From Opitutales bacterium (lineage in GTDB: Bacteria > Verrucomicrobiota > Verrucomicrobiia > Opitutales > Coraliomargaritaceae), in NCBI GenBank assembly GCA_030729385.1, contig JANQXM010000042.1, forward strand, positions 120,336 through 172,360: a stretch of DNA of 52,025 nt. The letters run 5' to 3'. A program made the translations under genes and the position numbers. Every line of letters begins with the position of its first letter. The first letter of the stretch is position 1. Shown here one piece after another: positions 35,497 to 45,148 of the stretch. A model generated the notes under the pieces. The model was not told the DNA's origin and made no database searches. It saw only the letters and a list, made by a program, of their open reading frames with translations.

Positions 35497-37119
35497 TTAT
35501 CCAGCAACTGGCTTAAGTGTGTAATCTCTCGCTAAGGTGCGAAAGCTCTCTGCTTCGCTCTGCGCCCATGCTTCGGATTCGTCGAGTTCTTGGGCGAGGA
35601 GTTGGGCGATGCGGTCTGCTGAATCGATGGCGGCTTGTGCGTTGAGTAGCAGGATGCGGGTCCGACGGGAAAGGATGTCTTCGACCTTGCGGGCCATTTC
35701 GTTCTGAATGGACCAGACGGCATCAGCCATGGTGTAAGGGAGATCAGAATGGATGCGTTGAGCTAGTTCGGGGCGCTCTGCGATGAGTGCTTGAATTTGT
35801 GGAGCGTCACAGCCGTAAAGTGCGAAATGGGTAGGGACGGCTGCCTCTAGCCGTCCGTTCATTTCATCGGCGGACGTCTGAGGGCAGACGTCCCTACCGC
35901 CGTGCAACTTCAATTCCGCGGTCTTGCATGGCAATGCGCTGAGCCCGCCGAGCGTTTCGGCTTGGTCGATGGCGTCTTCGGCCATGTGGCGATAAGTGGT
36001 CCATTTGCCGCCGGTGATGGTGAGTAGACCGCTGTCGGAAATCAGGATTGTGTGGTCGCGTGACAGGGCGGCGGTGTTGCCTTCGCTGTCGTGGGCTTTC
36101 ACGAGTGGGCGCAGACCGGCGAAGACGCTGAGCACGTCAGATCGTTGTGGGTCTTTGGCTAAATACTGAGCGGCGTTTTTGAGGATAAACTCGATTTCCT
36201 CTTCAAGCGCGACGGGTTCGAGGTCGATGCTTTCGACGGGAGTGTCGGTGGTGCCGACGATCACATGGTCGTGCCACGGCACTGCAAAGAGCACTCGACC
36301 GTCCGTTGTTTGTGGCACCATCACTGCGGCGTCACCAGGGACGAACTCTTTGGGCAGCACGATATGCACGCCTTGGCTGGCGGCGATAATCTTGGGTGTA
36401 ATTGGATTATCAATACGGCGTAGGGCATCAGTGAAAACGCCGGTCGCGTTAATGATGACTTTCCCGGCGAGTGTAAAAGCTTCGCCGGTTTCGGTGTCTT
36501 CGCAGTGGACGGCACGGATGAGTCCGTCTGTTTTTTCAAAGCCTGTGGCTTTAATGTAGTTCAAGGCGATGCCACCGTGGTCATAAACTGTTTGCGCGAG
36601 ATCGATCGCCAGCCGTGCGTCGTCGAATTGACCATCGTAGTAGATCACGCCGCCTTGCAGGCCCTCTGTCTCAAGAGTTGGGATACGTTCGAGTGTTTCT
36701 TCTTTGCTGAGATTCTTTGAAGGCTTGAGCCCCAGTTTACCCGCTAGCATATCGTAAACTTTGAGACCGATTCCGTAAAAGGGACCGTCCCACCACTTAT
36801 AGATCGGGACGATAAAGGATTGGTGGCGGACGAGGTGGGGCGCATTCGCGCACAGGCGACCGCGTTCTTTCAAGGCGTCTAGCACGAGCGAAATATTACC
36901 CTGTTTCAGATAGCGCACGCCGCCATGCACCAGCTTAGTGCTTCGACTGGACGTGCCTTGCGCAAAGTCCGCTTGCTCTATGAGGGCGACTGAGTGTCCG
37001 CGACTGGCGGCATCGACCGCGCAGCCTAGACCGGTTGCGCCGCCTCCTATGATGACGATATCGAAAGGTGCTGTGCGCGACTTCAGTTTCGTCAATGCCT
37101 CGTTACGATTCATTGGCAA
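35497..37119 (-). CDS. glpD: Glycerol-3-phosphate dehydrogenase (FAD), carrying a translated palindromic repeat
   Basis: Oxidises glycerol-3-phosphate to dihydroxyacetone phosphate and passes electrons to the quinone pool at the membrane. It is 540 residues. The FAD site is DIVIIGGGATGLGCAVDAASRG, followed by GTSSRSTKLVHGGVRYLKQGN. TGGKWTTYRHMAEDA is the late FAD/substrate motif, and the C-terminal DUF domain follows. At about residues 408-430, between LKLHG and HFALYG, lies a segment encoded by a twin-hairpin repeat (35831-35897). It keeps the frame and adds a peptide with no family counterpart that I recall. It lies upstream of purE on the same strand, with mqo next: two membrane-associated quinone-reducing enzymes side by side. 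Confidence 0.94.
   Translation of the reverse strand: MPMNRNEALTKLKSRTAPFDIVIIGGGATGLGCAVDAASRGHSVALIEQADFAQGTSSRSTKLVHGGVRYLKQGNISLVLDALKERGRLCANAPHLVRHQSFIVPIYKWWDGPFYGIGLKVYDMLAGKLGLKPSKNLSKEETLERIPTLETEGLQGGVIYYDGQFDDARLAIDLAQTVYDHGGIALNYIKATGFEKTDGLIRAVHCEDTETGEAFTLAGKVIINATGVFTDALRRIDNPITPKIIAASQGVHIVLPKEFVPGDAAVMVPQTTDGRVLFAVPWHDHVIVGTTDTPVESIDLEPVALEEEIEFILKNAAQYLAKDPQRSDVLSVFAGLRPLVKAHDSEGNTAALSRDHTILISDSGLLTITGGKWTTYRHMAEDAIDQAETLGGLSALPCKTAELKLHGGRDVCPQTSADEMNGRLEAAVPTHFALYGCDAPQIQALIAERPELAQRIHSDLPYTMADAVWSIQNEMARKVEDILSRRTRILLLNAQAAIDSADRIAQLLAQELDESEAWAQSEAESFRTLARDYTLKPVAG
35831..35897. repeat. Twin-hairpin palindromic repeat inside glpD
   Basis: Two 27-base arms (35831-35857 and 35871-35897) in inverted orientation with a 13-base spacer. 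Each arm begins GTAGGGACG on its own strand, has two variable bases, TGCC plus a short loop, the complement of the variable bases, and CGTCCG, so each arm is itself a hairpin. It is read through in frame by glpD. A second copy lies at 45065-45138. Confidence 0.9.
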
Positions 37120-44983: not shown

Positions 44984-45064
44984 GTCTGCTGAGTGGTCGC
45001 TTGAAATGGGCGAATTGTCAAATCTTTGAGGTTGGTGATGATACCTGAGGGTGCCGACAAAAGG

Positions 45065-45138
45065 GTAGGGACGCTTGCCCTCAAGCGTCTGTTTGTTGGG
45101 GCTATGCACGGCGGACGGCTGAGGGCAGCCGTCCCTAC
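45065..45138. repeat. Twin-hairpin palindromic repeat, intergenic copy
   Basis: Arms 45065-45091 and 45112-45138 belong to the same family as the copy in glpD: GTAGGGACG, variable bases, TGCCCTCA core, complementary variable bases, CGTC. The first arm reads CT/AG at the variable positions and the second GC/GC, and each remains self-complementary. It lies between the gene at 44498 and the terminator of the phosphate transporter. Confidence 0.9.
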
Positions 45139-45148
45139 CTTCTGAGCA

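Follow-up and report, generated by a model that had tools for sequence, protein, structure and literature searches.

Compensatory stem changes in GTAG-type REP dimers of a verrucomicrobial genome

The four short hairpin arms in the window (the whole 52,025-nucleotide stretch of DNA analysed here, on contig C42 of a 2.59-Mb draft genome of 73 contigs, G000) form two dimers of a GTAG-type REP, each in head-to-head orientation, and the dimers are REPIN-like. The variable bases of their stems covary across the genome, and the structural constraint most likely acts on the mobile element. We propose, with a probability of roughly 0.78, that these are non-autonomous, REPIN-like GTAG REP dimers of the RAYT (TnpA_REP) type, that their spread needs a foldable hairpin, that copies decay after insertion and that the corresponding RAYT has been lost or degraded or has escaped detection. 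A familiar kind of repeat is thus documented in a verrucomicrobial family that has been little studied; its covariation statistics are clean across genomes, and two species have in common an in-frame copy inside glpD.

Anatomy of the four arms in the window

The sequence GTAGGGACG occurs exactly four times in the window, at 35831 (plus strand), 35897 (minus), 45065 (plus) and 45138 (minus). The expected number is 0.18, and none of 100 shuffled sequences reached four. The intergenic dimer (45064 to 45139) is an inverted repeat, both arms of which match our covariance model: the plus-strand arm (45065 to 45091) has the variable pairs CT/AG and a G·T foot pair, and the minus-strand arm (45112 to 45138) has GC/GC. 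By Pfam, its neighbours are a Na/Pi-cotransporter gene, whose downstream end with a terminator-like hairpin faces the dimer, and a gene of unknown function. The other dimer (35830 to 35898) was delimited as an inverted repeat and by comparison with the congener G002. It lies in frame within a minus-strand gene (35497 to 37119) for a glpD-type FAD-dependent glycerol-3-phosphate dehydrogenase, which was assigned by the Pfam domains DAO and DAO_C and by orthologues in relatives. Its two arms also match the covariance model; the variable pairs are GC/GC in the plus-strand arm (35831 to 35857) and TC/GA in the minus-strand arm (35871 to 35897), the latter being CC/GG in the orthologous G002 copy.

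The preliminary description had read the variable dinucleotides (GC/GC, TC/GA, CT/AG and GC/GC) as complementary in every arm, and they are so in four of four. Its layout of the hairpin was right for these pairs but not for the 6-base loop. Because the outermost loop bases G...C pair with each other, the arm has a 9-bp stem (GGACGNNTG...CANNCGTCC) and a 4-nt loop; this outermost pair is formed in three arms and is G·T in the remaining one. A further small correction is that the arm at 45065 has a G·T foot (CGTCT). The tetranucleotide GTAG stands directly 5′ of the stem in all four arms, and the consensus unit is gGTAG-GGACGNNTG-CCCT-CANNCGTCC-G, mostly doubled head-to-head with a variable spacer. 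When folded as DNA, the arms form hairpins of greater stability than shuffled sequences. The window contains only three perfect GTAG-footed 8-bp hairpins, all of them among the four arms; the fourth arm has the G·T foot. The curated covariance models of Rfam gave no match to the window at gathering thresholds.

Covariation of the stem within and across genomes

When both variable dinucleotides were left free, the pattern had 41 matches in the own genome, and the reversed-pattern control had none. In 43 arms with these positions free, 84 of the 86 variable pairs were Watson-Crick; one G·T and one C·A made up the rest, clearly far from a mismatch in most other copies. The first variable pair was C-G in 32 arms, G-C in 5, T-A in 4 and A-T in 1, with one G·T and no other mismatch, and complementary alternative stem residues define sub-families among the arms. 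The genome-wide covariation test proposed in the preliminary description bears out its observation: the covariation score of the arm alignment was 0.233 as compared with 0.086 in shuffles, none of 500 shuffles reached the observed value, and partners slid out of register scored 0.060 at most. In the foot, T2 and G4 were invariant and G1 and A3 were conserved in at least 90%, where many copies had been chosen by that very motif. A covariance model built on 28 distinct arms detected 55 hairpins in the 2.59 Mb (E ≤ 0.01). Chance, or simple duplication of a few identical sequences whose pairing is unconstrained, is an extremely improbable source of this pattern. The same CC/GG pairs are indeed found in 29 of the 43 arms, so the copies are related, but within a single genome the first variable pair takes all four Watson-Crick forms, and the covariation is far above shuffles; the genome-wide pair counts refute this explanation.

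Twenty-two head-to-head dimers of the GTAG REP, mostly 64–74 bp in total, were found in the own genome. Most lie outside long ORFs; at least four, the glpD copy among them, are intragenic. The two arms were identical in none of the 22 dimers. Because each short arm keeps its pairing while the arms of a dimer usually differ, what is conserved is the individual REP hairpin and not a perfect 70-bp cruciform, and the whole-element cruciform was therefore rejected as the conserved structure. Active avoidance of identical arms was not significant (0 observed and 1.64 expected, P = 0.14) among 24 dimers, two of which belong to another palindrome (GTAGCCACGG) let in by a loose filter.

Several other features of the repeats were noticed in this genome. 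A lone hairpin at C71:14754 (L190:1155-1184) has an inverted loop (GAGGGC for GCCCTC) and ends in CCCTAA; it looks as though a deletion had joined the outer half of one dimer arm to that of the other. The genome also has a second family of GTAG-footed palindromes, GTAGCCACGGCA...TGCCGTG (for example L174:3223-3294 and L181:253-314), with 50 exact copies of GTAGCCACGGCA and none in the window. At several copies (L162, L170, L172, L179, L184 and L191), similarity runs past the dimer into flanks that are alike, with TGAGCGTATTTG on one side and CTTTGGCGTCAG on the other, which suggests a subfamily of longer elements.

The same hairpin was found in other species genomes, among the matches listed mainly in Verrucomicrobiota (Opitutae MAGs and Cerasicoccus maritimus being examples) and in Kiritimatiellae. 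When positions 8-11 and 20-23 were not constrained in the search, 444 of 468 inner pairs of distinct arms were Watson-Crick, where shuffling led to an expectation of 277 and a maximum of 300. In 118 distinct arms drawn from many genomes, the five highest APC-corrected mutual informations among 351 column pairs were the stem pairs 10-21, 11-20, 8-23, 9-22 and 7-24. These shuffle nulls ignore phylogeny; descent alone is an unlikely account of the covariation because several pair types occur per position and the signal coincides exactly with the helix. Selection on a folded structure, or inheritance of one, is strongly supported: covariation falls exactly on the stem columns and exceeds shuffles. 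Among distinct inner pairs, G·T on the GTAG strand was more frequent than A·C (13 versus 4, P = 0.049), as it was among the mispairs of all arms (40 versus 19, P = 0.009, the copies not being independent). This excess is a hint that a single GTAG strand folds, as ssDNA or RNA. The original list of cruciform, RNA and palindrome copying, which did not mention GTAG REPs or REPINs as the kind of repeat concerned, is thus supported in part and narrowed: the full-length cruciform falls away, folding of one strand is hinted at, and spread of subfamilies explains the data better than pair-by-pair repair in place.

Selection at the level of the host could also maintain paired stems. According to this explanation, the arms act as RNA hairpins, in mRNA 3′-end protection or attenuation, or as protein-binding DNA, and are compensated in place at each locus. 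Stem covariation is expected from it, the G·T excess suits RNA as well as ssDNA, and the intergenic element follows closely on the 3′ end of a gene with a terminator-like hairpin. However, each arm of a dimer is read from a different strand, and an RNA role would favour one arm only. Furthermore, Rfam gave no match, and the copy sets differ among congeners (55 model matches in G000, 12 in G002 and 2 in G001). The glpD copy speaks on both sides, with one pair compensated in situ but a hairpin without obvious use in this gene and, in G002, three acquired wobbles and two mismatches. Overall, we regard host-level selection as unlikely.

The glpD copy and the movement of stem variants

Translation of glpD continues in frame across the element at 35831-35897, giving GRDVCPQTSADEMNGRLEAAVPT. 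Eight relatives lack the element, and measured against them it adds about 15–17 residues, net, to a variable linker that follows "HG". The congener G002 alone shares it, with the same codon position; in G001, a further member of the genus, it is missing. This presence and absence would fit an insertion. The GlpD proteins of G000 and G002 are 77% identical. In the right arm, a T-A pair in G000 corresponds to C-G in G002, so that pairing is kept although both codons are altered (V to A and T to A). Other changes in the G002 copy are uncompensated: two C-G pairs of the left arm have turned into T·G, and the right arm has one G·T and two broken pairs, the inner of which (13-18) lies outside the 8 pairs scored by our in-situ comparison. 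Thus, this old copy is only weakly maintained in place, because three wobbles and two mismatches arose beside a single compensated pair. An orthologous element of this kind is a natural means of separating element-level selection (mobility) from host-level selection.

Four intragenic REPs of the own genome are read in one common frame (GRDxC...). Their hosts are an ORF that is UvrA-like by sequence, an FGAR-AT (purL-type) gene, a 443-aa ORF and glpD, and their positions are C33:43209 (L176:1110), C33:74078 (L177:1129), C48:30474 (L182:1125-1188) and 35831-35897 of the window. The reading frame in which GTAG contains the codon TAG is barred to intragenic REPs.

Stem variants were then compared between sites. 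In one REP subfamily of three related Opitutae MAGs, an A-T pair goes with the loop CCACG and a G-C pair with CCGCG in 34 of 36 arms, and the loop base that co-segregates with the stem pair is unpaired. Because a stem pair and an unpaired base change together, complementary stem changes can travel as blocks. At the sites L096 and L124, the whole stem and loop block differs beside a flank that is 98% identical on one side only. At one position of a DUF3418 gene in two Opitutus-like MAGs (L088 and L136), the REP dimers differ by four compensated pairs and by loop changes, and their spacers also differ. A further count from the in-situ comparison, 26 double changes as against 4.4 expected, was not used because chance-folding coding sequence and paralogous repeats contaminated it; we relied only on cases whose flanks were clear.

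These sites bear on the idea that whole arms are renewed in place in one step, whether by gene conversion between REPs, by strand exchange through a RAYT or by a templated correction of the palindrome. The block difference at L096/L124, the DUF3418 dimers and the T-A versus C-G pair of the right glpD arm all agree with it. However, a common flank on one side only means that rearrangement explains the L096/L124 difference, the unlike spacers at L088/L136 allow independent insertion at one site, and the G002 glpD arm, with its non-consensus letters and mismatches, is unlike a freshly converted arm. We therefore consider renewal in place quite unlikely as the explanation. The proposal that REP arms at fixed sites, protein genes included, are rewritten as whole hairpins (stem pair and loop) by conversion or RAYT-mediated replacement is likewise improbable. 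If it were true, palindromes would be renewed in place and complementary changes would arise in one step with no unpaired intermediate, a one-step route to compensatory change. Because blocks co-segregate in 34 of 36 arms and the old fixed glpD copy gained mispairs, the data are better explained by the spread of subfamilies that can form the hairpin than by repair of single pairs at every site, and pairing is probably inherited with the mobile subfamilies.

RAYT genes and comparison with known systems

REPIN-like elements are non-autonomous and are attributed to RAYT (TnpA_REP) tyrosine transposases. In our preferred reading, that of GTAG REP dimers as mobile elements, copies would spread only while a GTAG-footed single-stranded hairpin can be recognised. 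Recognition would require an intact stem but tolerate many stem sequences; spreading variants would therefore bear complementary stem changes, and after insertion most copies would decay. In one group 3 TnpA_REP, a stem mismatch lowers or nearly abolishes cleavage, complementing stem blocks has no drastic effect, and reverse-complementing the loop severely affects cleavage (PMC8266576). From these requirements a covarying stem, a fixed foot and a conserved loop are predicted, as observed here; by analogy, they may carry over to the REP of the window.

The gene neighbourhood in a relative of the same family, G004, also argues for mobility. There, a RAYT at L194:1074-1559 (NF047646, E 2e-27, above the cut-off) lies between two REPs with the same foot, the stem GGACGCCT/AGGCGTCC (GTAGGGACGCCT...AGGCGTCC) and the loop cgccg; foot and stem are those of the REP in the window, whereas the different loop counts against this reading. 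In G004:C91 (L194:1018-1686 and L195:996-1165), the RAYT-flanking REP alternates with a second hairpin, GTAGGGCTCT(C/T)TCGCCGA(A/G)AGAGCC, in a BIME-like array. Two strong PF01797 matches near REPs in another genome, G032 (148 and 142 aa), resemble IS200-type transposases more than RAYTs in sequence, and this neighbourhood was not taken as a REP-RAYT association.

A PF01797 search of the own genome gave nothing at threshold. The view that it has no RAYT at all was given up when the G004 RAYT protein, used later as a query, gave two weak matches. One is a divergent RAYT-like ORF at C67:45620-46051 (NF047646 E 1.8e-12, below the cut-off), which adjoins other repeats; the ORF (L255:1171-2126) has on either side copies of another repeat, CGTTCCCCGAAGC...GAGCTTCGAGGC and GGCCTCGTTGCTCAGCAACGGGG. 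The other is an apparently frameshifted remnant on the contig of the window, at C42:83624-83752, bracketed by GGAGGGACG hairpins. These hairpins are GGAG-footed, GGAGGGACGCGTTTCCACGCGTCCGCC (L256:1438-2063), and the region represents a fossil REP-RAYT-REP unit belonging to a sister type of REP. Neither search (PF01797 or the G004 RAYT) found an intact RAYT flanked by the GTAG REP of the window in this draft genome, which also counts against the preferred reading, and the RAYT that moved its copies may, besides the fates named above, have acted in trans.

The compensatory stem pattern is already known for REPs, and so are intragenic REPs. Modified REPs retain the palindrome, "suggesting selection for complementary mutations" (PMC2817692). 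In most GTAG families there are sub-families whose stems differ by alternative, complementary residues, and REPs sometimes lie inside genes, Opitutus terrae being richest in intragenic GTAG repeats, uvrA genes included (PMC3733652). For REPIN and RAYT in Verrucomicrobia, our literature search yielded PMC3733652 only. The elements described here resemble, by description, the GTAG REP families of Di Nocera et al. 2013 (PMC3733652) in the GTAG foot, the short loop and the head-to-head dimers; those families have 6-13-bp stems and 20-100-bp spacers, and our arms have a 9-bp stem and a 4-nt loop. Complementary stem sub-families and some intragenic copies, as in uvrA of O. terrae, are further points of likeness, whereas the host here belongs to the Puniceicoccaceae (Verrucomicrobiota). 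As in REPINs (Bertels and Rainey 2011, PMC3116915), two inverted REPs and a spacer form the unit and doublets predominate; compensatory changes on either side of the hairpin were noted there too. Unlike the Pseudomonas REPIN families of that study, copies are far fewer here and no intact cognate RAYT was found in the own genome. With respect to RAYT/TnpA_REP systems (Nunvar et al. 2010, PMC2817692; PMC8266576), the arrangement in G004, an NF047646 RAYT between REPs, is alike, although the loop there is cgccg as compared with GCCCTC in the window, and the own genome has only the divergent RAYT-like ORF and the frameshifted remnant. Finally, Rickettsia palindromic elements (RPE; PMC3733652) are similar in layout, as short palindromic repeats in frame in protein genes, whereas the repeat here is a GTAG REP.
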